Positions 11,737 through 26,257 of a stretch of 37,052 nucleotides of DNA are shown piece after piece. Position 1 is the first letter of the stretch, and each line of letters starts with the position of its first letter. Below the pieces are notes generated by a model, which had not been told where the DNA came from, did no database searches, and worked only from the letters and a program-made list of their open reading frames with translations. The DNA lies in the IMG/VR virus record IMGVR_UViG_3300024520_000231, positions 1-37,052 of that record; one strand, 5' to 3'. The translations under genes and the position numbers were made by a program. The DNA comes from a virus.

Positions 11737-13242
11737 TTAATTAGTAATTACTACAGGACGACCATATTGATCATAGTTAACTTTAACACTAGGATAAAAT
11801 CATCTTGTATTAGGCTGTAATTCATATAGATTATACAGCATTTGAAGAGAATCTATCATATCATCATGTGATCATCTAGGAAACTTAATCAACTGTTCTT
11901 CTAATTCGTTCATTCATAATTGATGATAAATCTTTCACGCTCTATATAATGGCACTAGTCTACGGATCTTACTTTCTTTGTCTTTATGTTGTCTTATTTC
12001 TTCTATATTAGTATACAATCATTTCTTTTCTATCTCCAGCTTCAAACTAAAATTTAAAGTTACTTGAGCCGCTACTGATTCTATCCCAAACTTTTCAGGT
12101 TCCCATTTACGGATATGATAAACCATCTTATCAATTAATTCTCAAGGATTAAATCTTCATACGGTATATTCAAGTACATATAAAGCATCATCAATAAATT
12201 TACCTGTCATTATACAACTATAATCAGCACTAGTTTTCTTACTAAATGCTGGATCAACAGCACTAAATATCCGTCAATTTTCAGGGATATGTTCATAATA
12301 TTTAAACCATTCTTGATGAAATTCCTGACTTTCTTTATTAATAGGATTTTGTTGGTACTGTGAACCAAAGTTCTGATTACCTAATGATTTCTTAATACTA
12401 TTTAAAGCTTTTAACGGATAACGTCATTCTTGTAAAGCGTCTCATTCTTTACGGGGATAAATAATATCTCAAACCACATGATTTTCTTCTTGTAAAGCTA
12501 TAGCAGGTAATATAATTTTTTCCCATTCATCTCAATGTCATTCAGCTTCTTTAGTCATTAAATGTCAACATAAATCATCTTCATGAGTTCTTTGCATAAT
12601 TATTATAATAGCATCTTTCAAAGGATTAAATAAACGACTAGCTACAGTATTATCAAACCAATTATTAATTCAAACTCTTTTTATATCACTATCAGAATCA
12701 TCAGGTTTTATCGGATCATCTATTATAAATATATTAGCACGATTACCAGTGATAGATCATCAAGCTCATGTAGCCATATAATAACCTCATTCATCAGTTT
12801 TCCATAATCATTTAGTATCCTGATCTTGTCTAATTAAAGGACGTTCAGGAAATACTTTACGAAATGTTTGTGATTTATAATAATCTCTAGCTTCACTACC
12901 ATAATTTTGAGTTAATGCAGCCGAATAACCAGTAACTATAATTTGCTTAGTAGCGTCTTTACCTAACATCCATACAGGAAAACATTTAGTTATTAATTCC
13001 GTTTTTCATGAACCAGGTGGAATATTTATTATTAATCTAGTACACTTTCATTCTAGAACTTCTTTAAGTTTTTGTTCTATTACATAATAATGCCAGTTAT
13101 CATCAAAGTCTTTATTTTTTTCTTCTTTAAAAAAGAACTTAATAAACTTAACTAAACTATCACGCTTTTCTTCATGACGTCTAATTAACATACGTCTTAA
13201 TAATTCTTGTCTATACTGTTCTTTTATTTCTGGATTTGTCAT
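11737..13242 (-). CDS. terL: Terminase large subunit
   Basis: A 501-residue DNA-packaging motor. The P-loop IPPGSGKT sits at residues 74-81; its last glycine is encoded by TGA at 13006-13008, direct proof that TGA is read as Gly. Walker B is IFIIDDP near 171. A C-terminal RNase-H-like nuclease follows, with FSAVDPAFS and the late acidic motif SHDDMIDSLQM. The ATPase drives DNA into the procapsid through the portal and the nuclease cuts unit lengths. The gene overlaps the small upstream gene by 19 bases, and portal, scaffold and coat genes follow. Confidence 0.95.
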
Positions 13243-13367
13243 ATATTATATTTTTTACAAAAATCTTTAGCACTAGATAAAAATACAGCCGATCTAGGTC
13301 ACATTTTATCTTCTAGTTTAGCCATAACTCTTAAGTCTTTTTTAATACTATCTTTTACTTCTTTCAT
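13224..13367 (-). CDS. Small protein overlapping the terminase start, unknown
   Basis: A 47-residue basic helical protein (MKEVKDSIKKDLRVMAKLED, ending KYNIGQIQK). Its last 19 bases overlap the start of the terminase large subunit in another frame, a sign of translational coupling. Both glycines are TGA, which argues for real coding. No family was recognised; a regulator or cofactor of packaging is possible. Confidence 0.55.
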
Positions 13368-13370
13368 TTG

Positions 13371-13583
13371 TTATAAATTAGTTGGTAAAGCTTTATAAAG
13401 TCTACTAGTATCATCTATCATTTCAGCAGGAACCCAAATGTTCGCATTAGTCATTGGGTATCATATTATCTGATATCAATCTCTAGTATCACCACAAAAA
13501 CTAATATCATTAGAATGATTCACTATATAATATCTTTTACGATCAAGACGACAACTCACATAATCTCATTTTTTAAATTTCAT
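13371..13583 (-). CDS. Small beta-rich protein, unknown
   Basis: A 70-residue protein starting MKFKKGDYVSCRLDRKRYYI. The pattern (KKGDYV at the start, then a VPAEMID stretch) recalls small SH3-like or KOW-like barrels found in phages, where an early KxGDxV turn is common. That is only a resemblance. Three of its four glycines are TGA. It lies 3 bases before the next small gene's start, in the packaging cluster. Confidence 0.55.
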
Positions 13584-13589
13584 AATTAA

Positions 13590-13943
13590 TTAGTTAGGTT
13601 TAAAAGTTTCTCAATATTTTTCTAGTTCTAGCCTTAACTCAATTATAGCCCTTTTTCACATTCATTTCATACACGAAATTGCTGTCTCAGTCCATTCAAA
13701 AGGTATTTCATTGAGAAAGTCCACACCTCAACATCTTAACGCATTCTTTGTTCTAGGAGACATTGAACTATCTGAGATAAGATGTTCCATTACTATATTA
13801 GCACCATTTCAAAATGCTCCACAACGTTTTGCTTCTTTAATGTCTTTCTTAGCAATAGATAATATATCTTCCACTAAAGATATAAACTCTTTATCATCTC
13901 TATTATTATAGATTAAACTAAATATTTGATCTTCTTTAGTCAT
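13590..13943 (-). CDS. Protein with C-terminal helix-hairpin-helix domain (RNA polymerase alpha-CTD-like)
   Basis: A 117-residue protein. The N-terminal 60 residues are helical. The end (about residues 88 to 117: AISCMKGMGKRAIIELRLEL, then EKYGETF) matches the helix-hairpin-helix signature of the RNA polymerase alpha-subunit C-terminal domain (hxxhxGhGKxxhxElxxxLxxxG). Two of the signature glycines are TGA. Such domains bind DNA minor grooves or UP elements, so this could be a transcription regulator or a DNA-binding packaging protein. Its ATG overlaps the stop of the HTH gene upstream (TAATG), which suggests a coupled pair. Confidence 0.65.
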
Positions 13944-14107
13944 TACATTGATATTAAATAAATAAAACATGAAACCTTTCAAACTTTGTTGATTACTTTG
14001 AACTTTTTAATCTTTCATTTATAGTACCATCTATACCCAGTTGATTGGCTTATACCCACCATCTTTGCTAGTTGTGGAACTGATGTGTAAACTTCACCTG
14101 AAAACAT
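13943..14107 (-). CDS. Small helix-turn-helix DNA-binding protein (MerR/excisionase-like)
   Basis: A 54-residue protein. VYTSVPQLAKMVGISQSTGY followed by RWYYKGKIKKFKV has the layout of the minimal MerR/excisionase helix-turn-helix: a helix, a turn at MVGIS, a recognition helix with RWYYKG, then a wing. Such proteins bend DNA or control transcription. The stop TAA overlaps the ATG of the alpha-CTD-like gene by one base. No integrase is present in the window, so a regulatory rather than recombination-directionality role is more likely. Confidence 0.7.
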
Positions 14108-14175
14108 GTCGTTAGTTGTTAGTATTATAATGCCGTTACTAGTCTTTTAGGGTGACAAAGAATCTCCCACCAGAC

Positions 14176-14511
14176 TTATCACTTTTTCTTTTCTTCAAAT
14201 ATTCTATTAATTGTTCCACTATTTACATGTCTACTAGTTAAAAAAATCTCTACACATTCATCATATTCTTCTGCATAATCTCTAACTAGTTTAAAGTCTT
14301 TTATAGTATTATCATAAAGCAAAGCATTAGACTCTTTTAAATAATTAATTATTGCTTCGTACTTAGTAATATCCATAATACTCATATCGTTCAATATAAA
14401 ATTATCTAATTCATCCATTGTTAAACTCTTACCAAGCAACATTATAACTCATAGAACAAGTTTTATGTCTTGTAAGAATCTCTTGTTTATCTTTCTAAAT
14501 AGCTTACCCAT
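14176..14511 (-). CDS. Acidic protein with N-terminal hydrophobic segment, unknown
   Basis: A 111-residue protein. The start at 14511 adds a basic/hydrophobic N-terminus (MGKLFRKINKRFLQDIKLVL, then GVIMLL) to a soluble acidic helical domain; the two are in one frame only if TGA is read through. The N-terminus could be a membrane anchor or an amphipathic helix. No family was recognised. It lies between terminase small subunit and the HTH gene. Confidence 0.55.
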
Positions 14512-14532
14512 AGTTATTTGTTATTTAATAAA

Positions 14533-14931
14533 TTACTCATCCATTAATTCTATTAACTGATCATCTGATAATCCTTTTAATTGAGCCTTACTTACTAACT
14601 CATGTTTATGCTTAATTACCGAATCAGGTTCTTTCCACTTATAATTACACTTTAATCAAAAGATTGCCATAGTTGGATTTAATTTGTTTTTAAGTGCTCA
14701 ATCGAAAACTCTTCACTCTATTAAGCTATGAATTTTTTTGTAAGTGTCCGTAATTTGCCTATTGTTAGGGTATCTTTGTATCCACTCACTAACTCTCTGA
14801 TGTGTATAATCTCTTTCTTCTAGTAATTCTTTAATATAACATATATTTTTATCTGCCTTTACTTCTTTTAGCATGTTTAATAGCTCTGTTAAAGCAAACT
14901 CTTCAGTGTGTTTAGTTGGAGTTTTAGGCAT
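14533..14931 (-). CDS. terS: Terminase small subunit (gp3-like DNA-packaging protein)
   Basis: A 132-residue protein. The N-terminal half has a helix-turn-helix layout (ELLEERDYTHQRVSEWIQRY); the middle carries the family signature LNPTMAIFGLKCNYKWKEP, matching the widespread N-T-x-MAIF-x-LK-x-x-x-W pattern of phage DNA-packaging proteins. Reading through TGA joins the two parts. The small terminase recognises the packaging site and loads the large subunit, encoded about 1.3 kb downstream on the same strand. Confidence 0.8.
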
Positions 14932-14954
14932 TGTTAAGCTATTAGTTAGTTAAA

Positions 14955-15197
14955 TTAATCTGTTCCTGTATCATATAATTGTTTTTTTACATGTATAATA
15001 GTCTCATTTATTACTTCTTTACATTCTTTGCAATCATTTATTATTTCTGAAAATAAACTTTTTTGTTTAGTTGTATGTGATATTAATTCATACTCTGCTA
15101 ATACAGAATCTATAACCGAACATATTTGCTGTAATCATTTTATATCATTATTTTTTCTTAAGCTTTCTATTTCGTCTTTAAATTTAGATACTAACAT
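14955..15197 (-). CDS. Small helical protein, unknown
   Basis: An 80-residue mainly helical protein (MLVSKFKDEIESLRKNNDIK, ending LYDTGTD) with two closely spaced cysteines (DCKEC). One of its two glycines is TGA, the other GGA. It is encoded 23 bases before the terminase small subunit start. No family was recognised; the single CxxC-type pair is not enough to claim zinc binding. Confidence 0.5.
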
Positions 15198-15237
15198 GGC
15201 TTTAAATTAAATATTATTTTTCGAATATTAATACGAG

Positions 15238-15369
15238 TTATTTTTGCGGTTGATTGCATATAGGTAATGGGTTTCATTTTTCCCATCTCTTGGTACAATA
15301 TTTACAAAAGTATTTTTTACTTATAGCAGATAATCATCCTGATGTAGGTACACAATTTACTTGGTTCAT
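15238..15369 (-). CDS. Putative mini zinc-ribbon protein
   Basis: A 43-residue protein. Cysteines occur as NCVP near residue 6, FCKYC in the middle and PIC near the end, with aromatic and basic residues between (KKYFCKYCTKRWEK), which looks like a small zinc ribbon. It starts inside the last 13 bases of the upstream gene in a different frame (ATG at 15369), typical of coupled translation. Four glycines, two or more TGA. Function unknown; nucleic-acid or protein contact is likely for such ribbons. Confidence 0.5.
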
Positions 15370-15593
15370 TCTAATTTATTATCAATTAAAGTTTGTACTC
15401 TATGACAAGCTATTACAACATCTCTTGCTTCGTTACATCTTACTTCTACAGATTTTGTATCAGCTAGTATAATCATCCCCTTTCTTCTATACTTATCCAA
15501 TTCTTTTCAATAAACATTCAATCATTCTTTCGTAACTATATCATTTTCTATTAATGCTTTTATTGATGTAATCTTTTTTAAAGTATCCTTCAT
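15357..15593 (-). CDS. Small helical protein, unknown
   Basis: A 78-residue protein (MKDTLKKITSIKALIENDIV, ending DNKLEGTK), largely helical with two cysteines. Its 3' end overlaps the mini zinc-ribbon gene and its ATG begins one base after the stop of the gene upstream. This tight chain (15807 to 15238) looks like one coupled operon. No recognised family. Confidence 0.55.
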
Positions 15594-15594
15594 A

Positions 15595-15807
15595 TTATTT
15601 AATTAATTCTAAAATTTCTTTTATTGTATCATTAATCTTTTCTATATATGATGTATTATCAAGTTGTGATTTTAATAGTATATAATCAGCTCTACGCTTT
15701 AATTCTGATACATGCCAGTCAATAAACTTATATCTCGCTTTATTGTTAATATCTGTAAGCCCTATATATTCTTTTATAAGATTTAAATCTTCTAAAATTC
15801 TTTTCAT
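15595..15807 (-). CDS. Small helical protein, unknown
   Basis: A 70-residue protein from the ATG at 15807 (MKRILEDLNLIKEYIGLTDI), helical and charged, ending KEILELIK. An upstream in-frame ATG at 15849 would add 14 residues that look like leader sequence; I preferred the internal start because it leaves the AT-rich leader normal for this phage. It contains no TGA. Function unknown. Confidence 0.5.
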   Translation of the reverse strand: MKRILEDLNLIKEYIGLTDINNKARYKFIDWHVSELKRRADYILLKSQLDNTSYIEKINDTIKEILELIK

Positions 15808-15890
15808 AATATATGATATTGAATAATTAACTATAACCAATATAGTCATATTATATAATTTATCAAGATTATTTTATACATTTCCTCTTG

Positions 15891-15928
15891 ACAAAAAATT
15901 AACCCCTTCAACCAAGAGGGATTAATTT
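15891..15928 (-). terminator. Hairpin terminator
   Basis: AAATTAA-C-CCCTT (from about 15896) pairs with GAGGG-A-TTAATTT (to about 15928), a stem of about 12 bp with one mismatch. On the minus strand it ends in TTAATTTTTTG. An alternative CCTCTTG/CAAGAGG pairing (15884-15890 with 15913-15919) overlaps it. Confidence 0.6.
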
Positions 15929-16157
15929 ATATCGAGATACAAAGAAAATAATACGTCCTAACAAATAATGTAGCACCATCATCATCATTGGTATTATCTA
16001 TTTTATTAATGGTAGTATAACTATATTTTTAATAAATCAAATTTATTCACATTATAAAAATAGGCTACCTAATAAACGTCTTTAATAAGCAAATAAATTA
16101 TATTTTGTGATTTTTTTTATTTTCACAAACTGTTATAAAATTCACAAAATTGTTACT
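15929..16157. other. Non-coding AT-rich gap
   Basis: No gene of supportable length on either strand. The stretch holds the TTTGTGA/TCACAAA repeats near 16104-16148 and short AT-rich frames without a start. It separates the small-gene operon (15807 downward) from the small RNA gene and may carry the operon's promoter; TATAAT read on the minus strand occurs near 16045 without a clear -35. Confidence 0.5.
16104..16148. repeat. Three copies of TTTGTGA/TCACAAA
   Basis: TTTGTGA at 16104-16110, then TCACAAA at 16123-16129 and 16142-16148. The first two form a perfect 7-bp inverted repeat; the second and third are direct repeats spaced 19 bp. They could be operator half-sites upstream of the small-gene operon. 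Confidence 0.5.
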
Positions 16158-16183
16158 AAAAAAAGAGATCCGTTTAGAATCTC
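16158..16183 (-). terminator. Intrinsic terminator of the small RNA
   Basis: GAGAT (16165-16169) pairs with ATCTC (16179-16183) with an inner C-G pair; on the minus strand the stem is followed directly by seven T (16158-16164). Confidence 0.75.
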
Positions 16184-16266
16184 CCGAAAAAACCGCATCT
16201 TAAGGAGCGAAGAGTTTTATTCTCATGTGATAAGTACTCCACATATTATCACAAGTGTCGTCTGAC
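16158..16266 (-). ncRNA. Putative stand-alone small RNA (about 109 nt)
   Basis: Between two protein genes lies a promoter (16273-16299), a probable transcription start near 16266 and, about 100 bases on, a canonical terminator (16158-16183). The interval encodes no protein of more than 22 codons. The 5' part folds as TGTGATAA (16226-16233) with TTATCACA (16246-16253), an 8-bp perfect stem with a 12-base loop; the 3' part is the terminator hairpin. I do not recognise a known RNA family. It may regulate late genes by base pairing, or act as a packaging or antitermination RNA. Confidence 0.55.
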
Positions 16267-16272
16267 ATATAT

Positions 16273-16299
16273 ATTATACTACTGTATTTTTATTTTCAA
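16273..16299 (-). promoter_or_regulatory. Promoter of the small RNA
   Basis: On the minus strand TTGAAA (16294-16299) and TATAAT (16273-16278) are separated by 15 bp. The same TTGAA/15 bp/TATAAT layout occurs upstream of the late operon at 24684-24710. Confidence 0.6.
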
Positions 16300-16343
16300 G
16301 CCTTTTTCTTAAAGAATGCTTTAATTCTTTCAGTTCTAAATGG

Positions 16344-19300
16344 CTACTTTTCTTCTTCTTCTTTTAAATTATTGATAATACTCCCAAGTAAAGCTTTTTC
16401 TATTCATGATAATTTAAGATTGTTTTTTATCTTACCCATTATTCATCTTCATGCTCTATTAGATAATGCTTTAGCTAATCCTGATTGAAATTTTGTTGAA
16501 GAAAGAAATCTTTTTCATACTATAATTCATGCTGCTGTGGCAATAGACGAGAGTCAAAGTCATAAAACCGTACCTGATGCTCAAGCAGATGATATAACTC
16601 ATTCTGAAAATGTTGGCTTAAGTCCTTTTGTTTGTTTTTTATCTAACATATTAACTAATTCAGTAGCAACCTGAGTATCTTTATTAAGTTCTTTTACCCT
16701 TTTAAATCACGCTTCAGCTGCCTCTCCTTCAATAGATTTTTGAAGTTTTGCTCTTAGATTTTCTAATCATTCTGCCTTTAATTGATCCTTTAATACTAAA
16801 GATTTTTTATATAAAGGAATAGTTTTTACTAAAAGTCTTTTTACTTTATTTCTTTCTGATAAAGTTAATCCTGTTTTTTTACTTTTTTGTAACAATTTAT
16901 TAACAACATCTAATCTTTCTTCTAATCATCATATATTTTTTAATTTTTTTATTACTTCTCATAAGATTTGATTTACTACAGGATCATTCTTGGTTCACTT
17001 TATTTTAGCTAGTCAACTATCAATTGAATCCTTACTCTTCTTAGATAGCGTTTTAAGCTGGTTAAAGATAGATTTCTGTGTTCATGATATTCATTTTTCT
17101 AGAATAAATACTCCTGGTTCTCTTCATAATACATTTGGTTCTTTTATTGCTAAAATCTGTGCGTCGGTTAATCATAATGATCTAGTTGCTTTAGTAATAT
17201 CAATTCACGATAATTGTCATAATGTTTTTATTGAAGTCTTTATTCCTTTTCATACAGCTATAGTTCATAATCATCATAATAATCAAGCAAATTGTTCTTT
17301 CTCTTCTTCAGATAATTGTTCCATATAACCCTCTACTAATTGATTTTCTTCTGCTAAGAATTTTCATCATTCTGTAGCTACATCTTGAACATACTCTAAG
17401 TATCATTTAGCTGTATCATTTTCTTTAGCTGTTTCTATTGCTATACTAGTATATGGATATGCTACTATAAAAGACCCCGCAACTCATGCTGTAATGATTT
17501 TGTTTATGTCTGTTGCTACATTGGTATCAAAAACTAAATTATCTCCTTTAAAATTCTCTTTTGTTATTGGTTTTTTCCCTGCCTTTTCTCTTATCATATT
17601 AGCAACGTTCACTATTCCCTTTTGTCATAATCATGCTAATCATTCTACAATTCTATCCGCTGCCGATATAACTGATTTTGCTGTTCCTACAACTCATTTA
17701 GCTGCAACGTCTAATCATTTTGAAACCTCAGGAAATCATGCTAACTCAGCTAGTTTACTAAGAGCGGTTTTATGTTTAGAGCTTTTTACTTGTGGCAAAT
17801 CTGTTTTTGGTTTTGATGTATCAGATTTTAAAGATTGTTGTTTCACTGTTTGTATAGGCCTTGGATCTTCTTTAACTAGTTTAGATCAAATATCTTTACT
17901 TATTTGCTCTACTCTAGCGTGTGCTGATTTATCTGTTTGATATACTCAAAAGAATTCTTTTCATCCACTACTTACTCAACTAGCCAATTCCTTAGGTGTT
18001 GGAGCTCTTTTTTCTCCAGTAATTCTCTTAAAAGCTGCTGTTCTTCTTGATAAATTTTCAGCTACTGCATCAACTCATTCATTTATAGTCTTAAATCAGG
18101 CAACAGCATTTGTTCAGAATCTATCAAACTGTCATACATTTCAAGGATTATTATTCTTTGCTCATATTCATCTAGTTCAAAAACCACTATCGTTTTGCAT
18201 AAATGCCATTATAGTTTCTTGTGGAATTCAATACTTTAAAGCAGAATCATTTATCATTTTAGGAGTAATTGTAGTTCATTTAAATCTTTGTAATACTGTA
18301 GCTATAGTACCTTCTTTAGCAGGCGTAATTCATCATTTTGACACTCATTGTGGTTGTATTCATCATTTTGACACTCATTGTGGTTGTATTCATTGTGTTT
18401 TAAGTCCAGTTTCTCTTTTTTCTACTCATGTTACAGCTCTTTTAAAATCATCGATAGAATCAAATCAAAAATCTTTAGCCTTTCATTGTAATATGCTATT
18501 ATATTCATTTAACATATTGTCTACCGACTTATTAAACCTCTTATCTGATTGTGATACATTTGGTATAAATTTAAGCAACCTAGCAGCTTCTTGTGCACTA
18601 ACAGCAGTTCAAGCCATATTCTTTAAGATGTTAGATAAGTTTTCTCATGTTAATATATCAAGTTCTATAAAGTCTCATGTATCAACATCAGCAAATTCTT
18701 TTCATTGGTTTGCAAGTGCTGCCAAAGGTCAGGTGTCAACTGTTTCTTTTAGTTTTTTAATTCTATCTAAACTGTCAGAAACCTTAAATAATCATTGTAG
18801 TTTTTCGAAATCTTTAGTTGGTAATTGTTGAAATTTCAGGCTTCATCCTCTTTCTTGACGTAATTCTGTCAATCTTGTACTTACAGCACTTCTTAATCAT
18901 TTAGGATTATCTGGAACACTTGATATACTAGCCTCTCAATTAAGAATATTAGACGCCCAATCATTAATTAATGCTTCAGTTGTTCATTTAGCTGGTTTTC
19001 ATGTAGCTCAAATCCCTACTCATACAGCAGGAGCTCATGGTTGTCATTTTTGTATTCGTGTTATAGCTTCTTTTATTATAGAATCTCAGTTTTCTAAACC
19101 TTTAACTATATTATTAGCTGCATCACTAATATTTCAAAATGGATCTATTAAGTTATTTACTATAAAATCAACTATAGCTTCATCATCTTCATCAAGTTCT
19201 TTTCATTCTCATGTAATTCATTTAGATCTCCTAAATACCTCAGCCTTTATAGCTTCTGCATTTTTCATGTCTTTAATTAAATTAAACGCTGTTGCATTAG

Positions 19301-20465
19301 GTGTACCATCTTTATTAAATCAGTTATTTAGTAAAAATTCAACTGTTGATTCCTCCTCTTTAGTAAATTGAACTGCCCGTTCATCTCAGAATTTGTCCTT
19401 AGCCCTTAATATAGCCTGTTTAATTATTTCAGTACTATTAGGAAGATCTTTAATCATTTTCATAACAGAATCTTTCATTTCTCAATCAGCAGTGAATCAT
19501 TGAGTAGCTATAAAATCAACTATTCATTCTTCGTCAGCTGATAATTTTACTGGTTTTGTTTTAATGGCATCTAATGTAGTTAATAGATTATCTAATGCAG
19601 CTAGTCATTTAACTTTAGCTTCTTTATTTGCTTTAGCTGTTAAAGCTACTGATTTTAATACAAATGCTCTATTTTCTTTTTCTAATTCTCTTTCTTGTGC
19701 CTTCAATCATTCTATAAACTCTCATTCTTCTTCTAATGCTTCTGCTTCAAATATTTTTTGTTGTAAATTAAATTGAGCTCTTTGTGTAGCTATAGCACTT
19801 TCAACTCTTTGAGCTATATCAGCACGTCTGCCAGCAGCAAATGTAGACCTACCAAATCAAGAAAATGATAACACATCTTGTGCAGCCTGTATTTCTCTTT
19901 CTCAAGAAGCTCTTAAGACTGCAGCTTCTTCAGCTTGTTTAGCTTTTAAAGCCTTTCTACTTTCTTCAATTAATTTTTGTGTTTTTTGTTTTCTTTCTCA
20001 AGTTAGTCTTACGTTTTCTGCTTTTAATTCAGCACTTTGCTTTTCTTGTTCCTCTCTCTCTGCAGTAATAACAGGATCTTCTGGAACTTCTCATGCTTCT
20101 CAAAAAGTATCTTCTCATAAAGCCCTAGATATTTTAATCTGTGAAACAAACTTTCTTTCTTCATCAGTTACATCTTCTCATAAATCAATTCTATTAGCTA
20201 TATCTTTAAATGTTTCTTTATTTGCTATTCATGACTCTTGATTAAAAAAACGATTTGGATCTTCTGTAACAACAGGAGCTTCAGTAGGAGGTTTTAGAGC
20301 ATCGGGAGATCTATCAATAAGGGGTTCATCTTTATTAGCTTTTATAGGTTTTTCAGTAATACCAACATCTGTTTGAGGTATTTGAGGAGCCTCTACAACA
20401 GATTCTACTACATCAATAGGAGCAGTAGGTTTTTTCTTTTCTAGTATATTAGTTTCATTAGCCAT
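16344..20465 (-). CDS. Giant internal virion / tape-measure-like protein
   Basis: A 1373-residue protein, the largest in the window. I checked the frame codon by codon and found no TAA or TAG. It begins with a Pro/Glu-rich region (MANETNILEKKKPTAPIDVV), then long helical, coiled-coil stretches rich in Lys, Glu and Ala. The last quarter holds hydrophobic segments (IITAGVAGSFIVAYPYTSIA; FAGLLGGLGTIAVG; a final Ala/Gly-rich one ending AAGIIVGKRF). Long helices plus late membrane-like segments fit tape-measure proteins or the ejected internal proteins of podoviruses that form a DNA channel through the envelope. With no other long-tail genes, an ejection role is likelier. It contains an exact 30-bp tandem duplication. 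Confidence 0.8.
18331..18390. repeat. Exact 30-bp tandem duplication inside the giant virion gene
   Basis: 18331-18360 and 18361-18390 are identical. The duplication is in frame and repeats ten residues (GIQPQGVSKG) in the protein. Perfect identity indicates a recent slippage event. Confidence 0.95.
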
Positions 20466-20479
20466 AATATAAAATTAAT

Positions 20480-21910
20480 TTAATAAAATACTTTCCAAGC
20501 TACAGTGAATCCAGATCAAGTTAAATTACTTGGTGTTCATGTTTTTGTTCAAGCTAATCTAAGAATAAATTGTCATGAAGAAGCATCTGTTACAGTAGCT
20601 ACAACAGCCCAACTATTAGCTCCTGTTGAACCAAAATCATTATTAGTAGCTGAAACAGAATATTGTGCTGAAGTAGGTGCAGCATCTGCTCAAACAAATC
20701 CCCATCCCCATCCATGCCTTAATGTAGTTCATTCAAATGTTAATGTTTTACAATATCTTCATGAATTATCTCATTGTACTCAACTAGCTCTTATTGTAAC
20801 TTCTATTAATTTAGGAGTACCATTTAATGAACTAGTAGTTGTATCTAAGTTTCATGTAGCAGATAATGTTGAAGCAACAGCAAAATATCATGCTTCATGT
20901 TGTAGATTTTCATAGTTATCTTTACCTTGTTTAGCTGTAATAACTGCTTGTGTAAGTGTTCATGTAGTAGCTTCAGCATCAGTAGCCATTTTAATACTAC
21001 TTGTTTTAATAAAGTTTGTTCCATCATAAACAACTACTACAATATCACTAGCTTCTATTTCATTGTTAGCTAAGTCTTCTCAATTTGATCATTTAATTGT
21101 TTTAGCTCATAAACTATCCACGTTTAATGTACAAGCTCATGTATTAGCTGTATTAGCCGTAAAAGTTATAGTTTGTCATGTTACATAAGCTCATAAATTA
21201 GGTGTAAGAGATATTACATAAGTATCACTTGCTTCTGCGTCTGCAGCAAACACCCATTTTCATTCTTGTACTGTTTCAGCTACTTGTGATGGATCAGGAA
21301 CGATAGTAGCTCATGATCATCATGCTCATCATGTTCATGCATCAACTTCAGCATCAGTAGCTAATTCTACTTTTCATGCTACAGTTGCACTAGCATTTGG
21401 AAAAGTTCAACCACTTTCTCTATCTACCCAAGATCATCATGTATAATCAGTAAATTTCCCTGTATCAGTTAAATATACCTGCATTCAATTAGCTGCTGTA
21501 GTTATAGCAGCATCTCTAGCAGTAGTGTCTGCATAAGCTGTAACTCATCAAGTTGACTCATCTACTTTAGAGTTAACCGCTGTAACTATATCACTCCAAA
21601 AAGCATAATTATCTGATATTATAACTTTAGATCAAACAGGATGTGTTTGAGCTGTTGTAGTAACAGAAGCTCATTGGCTTTGATTTCTTGATGAAATAGT
21701 AATACTTTTAGCAGAAGTATCTAAAGCACTAATTTTAACTATTTCCATTGTTGTTTTTCATGGATTAATAACGCAATAACTAGTAGTAGATGAAGGAAAA
21801 GTAAAAGAAGGTGCTGTAGCAACAAACATAGTTACTCATGATGTTGATAAAGCTTGTGTTAATGTAGTTGAATAATTATCTTCTAACGGATAAGTACTTA
21901 TATCACTCAT
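20480..21910 (-). CDS. Virion structural protein, fibre/collar type
   Basis: A 476-residue protein starting MSDISTYPLEDNYSTTLTQA. The first 100 residues form a beta-rich domain with a VNPGKTTMEIVKISA-like strand; residues about 165 to 195 hold NASATVAGKVELATDAEVDA and a Gly-rich stretch, a linker common in phage fibre and tail-surface proteins. The C-terminal 150 residues (RHGWGWGF, ending WKVFY) are beta-rich and resemble sugar-binding or fibre-tip domains. TGA supplies most glycines, including runs of two. It lies between the tail-hub-like gene and the giant internal protein. Exact role unknown. Confidence 0.7.
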
Positions 21911-21931
21911 ATTTATAAAAATTAAAAAATA

Positions 21932-23977
21932 TTAACCTAAATTGGCTGTTGGAAATATATCCATAGACTCGGTAGTGAAATCCATTCTCATTTTATCTAA
22001 TGTCCATACAGTCGAAGCTGCTTCACTAGACATTTTTATTTGTATTTTACTTCATGAATAAAACAATGGTAATCTAATCTTATAAGGGAATAAATCTATA
22101 TCATTTCACGTTCATTCTCATCATCAAATTGTACCTGTTCAAAGCTCTTTAGTTCATATAGTAATAGCTGTAATATCTATATCTAATTGTGTATCTGTTA
22201 TTTCATATGTATTAACAGTTTCTCAATCAACAAATAATTCTATATTTATTGTACTCCCCTCATTTTTAAGTCAACTGATATCTACAGAATTATAAGATTT
22301 AAATACTGAAATATCTCAAAAATCATATTCTTTAGTAGTTAATTCATGTAATATCTCTATTCATAAATCATCAAATCAAGTTTCTATTTCTACCATTTGT
22401 CATCACAATGTCGCTATCAAATCTCTAACAACACCATTTGTATCTATATAAAATCAATAATCATAAATAGGTTGATATGTATATTCAGACCAAGATTTTC
22501 ATATAAGACTAGAATAAACTATTGTTTTATTTGGGATATTATCATTAAGAGTATTAAAAGAAAAATAATAGTTATTCAAAGATTTAATATAATGTCATGC
22601 ATTTGCGTTATATTGTTTAGGAGTAATATCATTAATGAATTCTCTAAGATCTTCTGTTAAAGGTTGTGATTCAATTGCAGCAGATCAACTTACTCAATTT
22701 CTTTGTTTCAAAAAATTAACTCATTCATCTGTAAAATAAAATAAAGAATTTCATACATTTTCTATAGTTCTACTAGAATATCAACCATTCTGTGTATCTA
22801 ATCATGTAGCAGAAGGTGTAGATAAATTTATAGAATAAACTTTTTTGTCTTTAAAGGCTAATATTAAAGCTCATAATTCATGTAATCAATTTATTTCTCA
22901 AAGTTCATCTCATCATACTACTACACTATTAGCATTAGGAGTCTGTGCATCTGCTTGTGCCGTATTGTCGTAATATAATGTGGAAGGATTAGAATCATCT
23001 CACGCTCATATAATACGATCAGAAACATAAAGTAAATACCTAAAATTAGGCTGTCAAGCATATTCGGTAGCCACTACTCAATTAAAATCCATATAATTAT
23101 CTACTCAATTACACATATATATAATATTTCTATATACAGCAAAAGACCACCTTGTGCGTTCTGTTGTTCGTCAAGTAGCTGTTTCAAATTGTGTCAATGA
23201 TGTCTTTATTAAATCCCAGTAAGTACTAGTTTCATCATAATGAAACATATTAGTTCATACAGCAGCTATAGCAGTTCTAACTAAAGTATCATCTCTTTGA
23301 AAAAAGAAATATGAGGTTACTGGCAAAGAAGAGCTAGCACTATATGCATTTATATCATCGAAAGTAACAGCTGTTTGATCTGTATAAGAAGATGAATAAG
23401 TTATATTAAATTGAAAATAGTCTATGGTTGTGTCTACTGGAGTTCATGTACTTGTAGCATCATCAAACAATAAAGGTAAAAAAGTACTGGTTCATTCAGT
23501 TAATGTCGAACTTGTCCAACTATAATAATTAGAGGAGTCAGAACCAACCTTAAATTCTATTTGTGTAAGATTAGTATTAAATCAAGATGGAACATTATAC
23601 CATAATCATATATATCATTTAGCTGTACTTATATCAACAGTTCATATAGAAGCATTTGTTAATGTTGCAGCATCTCATGCATCATTTGATACATCTATAG
23701 TAAAATCTAAAGCATTAGTCCCCCTAATAGCTGTTGTAGTGGCTAGGGAGGTTGCATCCAATGCCGCAGTCCAATTAGTAGTTGCATCCATGTCATTCAA
23801 CGCTACAACAGCATCAGGGATTGGTTTACCGAAAGTAGCAGTTCAACGTCTAGTTCTTAGTCGTTTATCTTTATCATAATACATATTTTTAAGAGTCGCA
23901 AACTGATTATCATCAATAATCTGTGCATCAGTTAAATTTAACCCTCATTTAAAATTTGTAAGATTTATAGTAGACAT
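21932..23977 (-). CDS. Tail hub-like protein (T7 tail tubular B / P22 gp10-like)
   Basis: A 681-residue protein beginning MSTINLTNFKGGLNLTDAQI. The start resembles podovirus tail-hub proteins, which open with a short GG(L/I)N segment, then a beta-propeller-like body with repeated sugar- or DNA-tube-type blades: NIIYMCNGVDNYMDFNG and similar 'name-and-value' strands recur. The C-terminal 150 residues are beta-rich. It follows the adaptor by 15 bases, the same order as gp11-gp12 in T7-like and gp4-gp10 in P22-like phages. I checked the full frame. Family assignment is by pattern and order, not by a diagnostic motif. Confidence 0.65.
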
Positions 23978-23992
23978 AAGTTATAATGTTTA

Positions 23993-24655
23993 TTATATTA
24001 AAACGTCCGATCTAACTACTTTTCTTTGTCTAGCAGTTAAAAATTGATAGTCATTCTCGTCATACTGTATATATGTTCATAAAAGCATATTAAGTATATC
24101 TTGGTAATCTTGTATTTTTTCTTGTGCTGTTTGTCTATTTCATCTAGCCGTATTCCATACTAAATAAGAAGCATATTTAATAATTAAAAGATCAAAATCA
24201 TCAGGAAAATCTATAGTATCACTATCACTACTTAATGCTGTTAATTTCTTTTTGTAATCAATATCTAAAGTTCATGCTGCATTAGGAGTAGGATCTAAAC
24301 CTATAACTGTTCATCTTATATAATATCGTATAGGAATTGAAGATGTAAATGTAGCAAACTTCCGCTTTAATGCTACTTTTGTAGTTTTGAATAAATCATC
24401 TCATTCATATCTAACTAACTCTATTCTAATAAAATCAGAAATATTACTCGTTAAAGAATATTCTTGAGTTCATGATACAGTTGTTATAGTCGTATTAGCA
24501 TCATGCTCTCTCCATTCAAAATTTCAATCAGCCTGTACTCTTGTATAAGCTCGATTAATAGCACTATTTAATACTGAATCACTCCATATTTTTCAATTAG
24601 GATCTATTTTTATTTCATTTCTTAGGTCAGTTCTCAAACTTAATAAAGTACTCAT
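23993..24655 (-). CDS. Head-tail adaptor-like protein (T7 gp11 / P22 gp4-like)
   Basis: A 220-residue protein. It begins with the helical pattern of podovirus adaptors: MSTLLSLRTDLRNEIKIDPN, then W(S)DSVLNSAINRAYTRV and FEWRE. A beta region follows (QEYSLTSNISDFIRIELV), a PIRYYIRG strand and a late LIIKYASYLVW helix. The same layout occurs in adaptor proteins that ring the portal and start the short tail. It is the first gene of the leftward late unit, 29 bases after the late -10 prom site. Several helix-capping glycines are TGA. Confidence 0.7.
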
Positions 24656-24683
24656 ATTAAAAATATTAGTTATATCTATTATC

Positions 24684-24710
24684 ATTATAATATATTAAAT
24701 TAGAATTCAA
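24684..24710 (-). promoter_or_regulatory. Leftward late promoter
   Basis: On the minus strand TTGAAT (24705-24710) and TATAAT (24684-24689) are 15 bp apart, just upstream of the adaptor gene. It lies in the divergent gap 24656-24813 opposite the rightward promoter at 24753. Confidence 0.6.
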
Positions 24711-25922: not shown

Positions 25923-26068
25923 AGCCTTATTAAAAACCTAATGAAATCTTGTGTTTCCATTACGTTATAAAATAGCTTTAGTAAGGCTACTTAATCCTTC
26001 TGATCAGGGTGGTTACTGGTAATTAGGGCTGTAAGTTGCATTAATTCGCAATCTTATTGGCCCTTTTT
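25923..26068 (+). ncRNA. Structured RNA region ending in a terminator
   Basis: AGCCTTATTAAA (25923-25934) pairs with TTTAGTAAGGCT (25977-25988), 12 bp with one G-U; inside it TAATG/CATTA can form a second hairpin. Downstream CCTAAT/ATTAGG allows a long-range pairing. The element ends in a strong intrinsic terminator: AGGGC (26025-26029) with GCCCT (26060-26064), inner TAAG/CTTA and TGC/GCA, then TTTTT. It may be the structured 3' end of the preceding transcript or a separate small RNA; a promoter just upstream (TTGATT or TTGAAT with 16 bp) is weak. Confidence 0.5.
26025..26068 (+). terminator. Intrinsic terminator
   Basis: GGGC/GCCC outer stem with TAAG/CTTA and TGC/GCA inner stems and a T-run at 26064-26068. 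Confidence 0.75.
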
Positions 26069-26086
26069 ATTTTATTGAAAAAACTA

Positions 26087-26120: not shown

Positions 26121-26243
26121 GCAACATTAAATCACACTACATAGAGAATGTCTAATAAGCCTTGCGACAGCTTTTGTTGCAAACATTGATCAACTCGTAG
26201 TGTGGTTGATCCCTGTCGTAAGGCTTACTGGACATTTTATTTT
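26121..26243 (+). ncRNA. Highly structured leader or small RNA with possible pseudoknot
   Basis: Directly after a promoter: AATGTC (26147-26152) pairs with GACATT (26231-26236); 26156-26170 pairs with 26213-26227 over 15 continuous pairs (one G-U); GATCAAC (26188-26194) pairs with GTTGATC (26205-26211). The apical loop contains GTAGTGTG (26197-26204), fully complementary to CACACTAC upstream (26133-26140). A T-rich tail follows (TTTTATTTTTT), then the leader of the gene at 26258. This is either a free RNA or a terminator/antiterminator leader that controls the genes downstream. The overall design matches no family I know. Confidence 0.65.
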
Positions 26244-26257
26244 TTAACCATTTTTTT

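Follow-up and report, generated by a model that had tools for sequence, protein, structure and literature searches.

The candidate unit (16158-16299) lies in a window of 37 kb, the complete virus record that was analysed, in which the genes form open reading frames only when TGA counts as a sense codon. TGA falls at glycine positions, for example in the PPGSGKT of the terminase, and the reading frames thus indicate that the phage uses genetic code 25, with TGA as glycine. Read with the standard code, almost every gene of the window would look broken. Code 25 is known from Gracilibacteria, Absconditabacteria and some of their phages (PMC10746230), and its use implies a host of the Gracilibacteria/Absconditabacteria type.

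The genes and features at the locus, in the order in which the minus strand is read, are the following:

16344-24685, minus strand: tail-type operon, on the same strand as the unit
16344-20465, minus strand: upstream gene for a virion protein of ~1,370 aa, with weak similarity to a glucosaminidase domain and TGA as glycine throughout
16294-16299, minus strand: −35-like hexamer TTGAAA
16273-16278, minus strand: −10-like hexamer TATAAT after a 15-nt spacer; with the alternative −10 TAATAT (16276-16271, spacer 17 nt) the element spans 16271-16278
16200-16268, minus strand: 22-codon ATG ORF, MSDDTCDNMWSTYHMRIKLFAP
16158-16266, minus strand: predicted short transcript of ~109 nt
16226-16253, minus strand: perfect 8-bp inverted repeat TGTGATAA-12-TTATCACA (arms 16253-16246 and 16233-16226, loop 12 nt), a hairpin or a DNA operator
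16158-16185, minus strand: intrinsic terminator with a 9-bp stem that includes G-U pairs (16185-16163), loop TAAAC and seven T (16164-16158)
16133-16198, minus strand: 21-codon membrane-type ORF
15896-16126, minus strand: second promoter-terminator unit in tandem, directly following the first (promoter GTGAAA-18-TATAAT, 16126-16097; terminator 15928-15896)
15899-15988, minus strand: 29-codon ORF for a membrane-type peptide, its end overlapping the second terminator
13224-15849, minus strand: downstream small-gene cassette, headed by an 84-aa ORF and leading to the terminase
14533-14931, in the cassette: TerS-like protein (GP3_package, below cut-off)
13943-14107, in the cassette: HTH-like protein
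13590-13970, minus strand: protein weakly like the RNA polymerase alpha C-terminal domain (alpha-CTD; Pfam E 0.004, below cut-off), adjoining the HTH-like protein
11737-13242, minus strand: terminase, after which come the portal and major capsid protein (MCP)

From this gene order the unit sits at the predicted boundary between a tail-type module and a packaging module. The sequence-only reading had placed it between two late protein genes, which holds for the upstream side, where the neighbour is a late virion gene, but not for the downstream side, where the neighbour is the 84-aa ORF heading the small-gene cassette and not a late structural gene. Across the window Shine-Dalgarno sequences are nearly absent, and an AT-rich leader such as TTTATTTTTTAAC...ATATTATG recurs upstream of most start codons.

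Anatomy of the candidate unit

The promoter, hairpin and terminator are all on the minus strand, that of the late genes. The promoter TTGAAA-15-TATAAT was recovered at 16299-16273, on a strand that the sequence-only reading had left unstated, and the perfect 8-bp hairpin and the terminator with seven T described there were likewise located. Placing the transcript start 7 nt past TATAAT and its end at the T run gives 16266-16158, in agreement with the RNA of about 109 bases proposed earlier. The −10 match may mislead, since the stretch TATAAT-ATATATG resembles the start contexts of real phage genes such as the terminase and the 84-aa ORF. Just past the first terminator, TTTGTGA/TTCACAA half-sites are clustered at 16104-16147, a possible operator.

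Comparison with shuffled sequences

Taken singly, the promoter and the hairpin of the unit are close to what intergenic DNA of this composition (25% GC) yields by chance. A promoter matching 11 of 12 positions in the gap had a p value of 0.04 to 0.065 against shuffles, and a hairpin of at least 8 bp one of 0.045, both marginal on their own; promoter-like sites overall showed no enrichment over shuffles. Folding of the whole RNA gave a z score of −1.27, and for the RNA minus its terminator the fold was shuffle-like (z −0.2); selection for structure is thus apparent nowhere but in the terminator. The surrounding 1.5 kb held three terminator-like sites, against 0.2 in shuffles. The plus-strand RNA folds slightly better (z −1.85; −2.15), but the sole T-run terminator points to the minus strand, and this orientation was rejected.

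The combination of elements behaves differently. We scanned every intergenic gap of 100 nt or more in the window, on both strands, for a promoter no more than 220 nt upstream of a terminator, and found such a unit only in the gap 15850-16343, on the minus strand; hairpins elsewhere that are longer or bulged, for example 26025-26065, were passed over by the strict terminator criterion. Among shuffled gaps, 5% of sets contained one when at least 9 of 12 promoter positions were required, and none of 60 did at 11 of 12 or more. Chance thus seldom produces the promoter-terminator combination. Of the free-standing small RNA gene proposed by the sequence-only reading, the self-contained promoter-terminator unit therefore stands (0/60 shuffled sets), whereas a functional non-coding RNA does not follow: evidence of RNA structure is confined to the terminator, and the best base-pairing target among the phage gene starts was no better than that of shuffled RNA, 34% of which did as well.

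Relatives and known RNA families

A search of IMG/VR with the portal protein returned 35 related contigs, 41-58% identical. The unit was absent from these phages by blastn, nhmmer and a single-sequence covariance model, so conservation of the hairpin in relatives, the check suggested at the outset, came out negative among phages whose portals are only 41-58% identical; at this distance, absence is compatible both with a gene that arose recently in this lineage and with a chance arrangement. In most relatives the late gene and the terminase are only 13-266 nt apart, and some of them (L021, L025) carry unrelated small genes at the junction, TerS-like ones included. No terminator was found at the junction in most relatives, and promoters there were plausible by eye, with no excess over shuffles.

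Wider searches gave no counterpart of the unit. Exact matches to three of its pieces were absent from IMG/VR, blastn against phage and plasmid collections returned no match, and 379 Patescibacteria genomes taken together, whatever their genetic code, gave only AT-rich matches of 20-30 nt to the promoter stretch. In GTDB genomes, aligning the portal and MCP led to no recognisable gracilibacterial record, the TerS-like and alpha-CTD-like proteins had no near relatives when used as queries, and the cassette ORFs did not match related loci. The earlier statement that no known RNA family is evident was borne out: Rfam release 15 gave no match in the window at the gathering threshold, and in the gap lax thresholds added only sub-threshold snoRNA, miRNA and sRNA noise. 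ARAGORN detected no tRNA or tmRNA, such as a suppressor tRNA, in the whole window.

Interpretation of the unit

Our tentative preference, at a probability of roughly 0.45, is a short RNA that is specific to this lineage and transcribed independently, most likely a small RNA that is not translated. The anatomy itself is established at the level of the sequence, and the consensus matches suggest that the unit is transcribed. Host-type sigma-70 RNA polymerase would start near 16266 on the minus strand and stop at the terminator around 16158, giving an RNA of ~109 nt in which the 8-bp hairpin lies internally and the terminator hairpin, followed by a U tail, forms the 3' end. The RNA would most likely remain untranslated, and our guess is that it base pairs with phage or host mRNA, for which its mostly unpaired middle, CUCUUCGCUCCUUAAGAUG, might serve. 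Transcripts reading through from the tail-type module would be stopped by this terminator as well. The short-RNA reading is favoured by the fitting succession and distances of promoter, hairpin and terminator along a single strand, by the scarcity of such promoter-terminator units in the other gaps and in shuffles, by the excess of terminator-like sites, and because no other feature explains the gap: Rfam, tRNA and tmRNA searches found none and the ORFs are within chance. Against it stand the lack of conservation in the 35 relatives, the shuffle-like fold outside the terminator and the shuffle-like targets. Of the properties of a trans-acting sRNA, an intergenic unit bounded by promoter and terminator is present at the consensus level, and conservation of sequence or structure was not found in these distant relatives.

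The locus could instead be an ordinary module boundary, whose terminator closes the tail-type operon and whose promoter-like site and hairpin arose by chance in DNA of 25% GC, with no dedicated small RNA; in a variant, a protein binds the inverted repeat. We consider this rather unlikely. It fits the marginal p values of promoter and hairpin, the lack of overall promoter enrichment and the lack of conservation of the unit, and the terminator is on the coding strand, 159 nt beyond the upstream gene's stop codon, while the TTTGTGA/TTCACAA half-sites would suit a regulatory boundary. It leaves unexplained a pairing of promoter and terminator that chance seldom gives, and why two such units stand in tandem in the gap, and with most relatives having no terminator here, a module-end terminator is not general in the family.

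We give a low probability to the unit being a micro-mRNA, almost leaderless, that would encode the 22-codon peptide and perhaps be coupled to the 21-codon membrane-type ORF beginning one base further on. The ATG of the 22-codon ORF lies at the predicted transcript start, and the sequence around it is AT-rich, as is usual for genes of this phage; the earlier assertion that the unit has no coding potential was to that extent overstated. Of the 19 relatives listed, 15 (L009, L011, L012, L014-L017, L020, L022, L028, L030-L033 and L035) moreover have a tiny hydrophobic ORF, mostly of 20-27 codons, at the late gene/TerL junction; these ORFs occupy the same position as the unit, and the single-span membrane-type junction peptide may come from an unannotated microprotein gene. 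The ORFs within the unit, on the other hand, have only 21-22 codons and are within chance, with 18% of shuffles holding an ORF as long as the 22-codon one or longer. Its peptide, unlike those of the relatives, is not hydrophobic (hydropathy −0.22 vs about 2-3) and so falls outside the hydrophobic 20-27-codon class of junction membrane peptides, and the 21-codon ORF passes through the terminator. The likeliest counterpart of the junction ORFs in the window is the 29-codon ORF of the second unit, which stops within the second terminator stem.

Around that terminator (15928-15880, minus strand), CCTCTTG and CAAGAGG offer a competing, attenuator-like pairing ahead of the small-gene operon. Least probable, in our view, is a prematurely terminated leader of the packaging operon, similar to the lambda late leader, in which antitermination would let polymerase reach the cassette and terminase: the unit shares their strand, two promoter-terminator units stand in series ahead of the first ORF, and the end of the 29-codon ORF in the second stem together with the alternative pairing would suit attenuation, but a second promoter and terminator lie between the unit and the operon, so that the first unit need not be a leader, the annotated genes include no recognisable antiterminator and no antitermination site was noticed, and the relatives have neither of the two terminators and no promoter enrichment at the junction.

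Comparison with known systems

Lambda produces a late-promoter leader RNA (lambda 6S), a short terminated transcript upstream of the late genes and on their strand. The unit is predicted to resemble it as a short terminated unit on the same strand as the genes downstream; unlike lambda 6S, it is separated from them by a second promoter and terminator, and no known Q-like protein or antitermination site was recognised here.

To our knowledge, no phage RNA regulation has been studied in code-25 (Gracilibacteria/Absconditabacteria-type) bacteria. If the short-RNA reading is true, the unit would add a small-RNA gene to the phages of such bacteria and would mark the way in which these phages keep tail and packaging transcription apart. 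As a candidate small-RNA gene of a phage it is of an ordinary kind. A stronger version, in which a regulatory trans-acting sRNA from a phage whose host is a TGA=Gly candidate-phylum bacterium forms, with the second unit, a previously undescribed late-module switch at the tail/packaging boundary, strikes us as a long shot.

Intergenic, phage-encoded trans-acting sRNAs are known, for example PreS of lambda and 24B_1 of phi24B (review PMC12197685). Like them, the candidate would be a short RNA gene carried by a phage, and in this case it brings its own promoter- and terminator-like signals. It differs in being a sequence-level prediction as regards transcript, target and any Hfq or other partner, with no sequence relationship implied, and in its host group, the code-25 CPR bacteria.

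Other structured elements in the window

Elsewhere in the window, positions 26128-26245 on the plus strand hold a structured element far stronger than the reported unit (folding z −6.3). A long stem, GTCTAATAAGCCTTGCGACAG/CTGTCGTAAGGCTTACTGGAC, encloses an inner hairpin, and a T-rich stretch comes after the element; the loop of the inner hairpin, GTAGTGTG, is predicted to pair with the upstream CACACTAC in a pseudoknot; no Rfam family and no relative was found for it. Just upstream on the same strand lies a second structured stretch, 25965-26075 (z −2.4), which ends in a strong terminator at 26025-26065.
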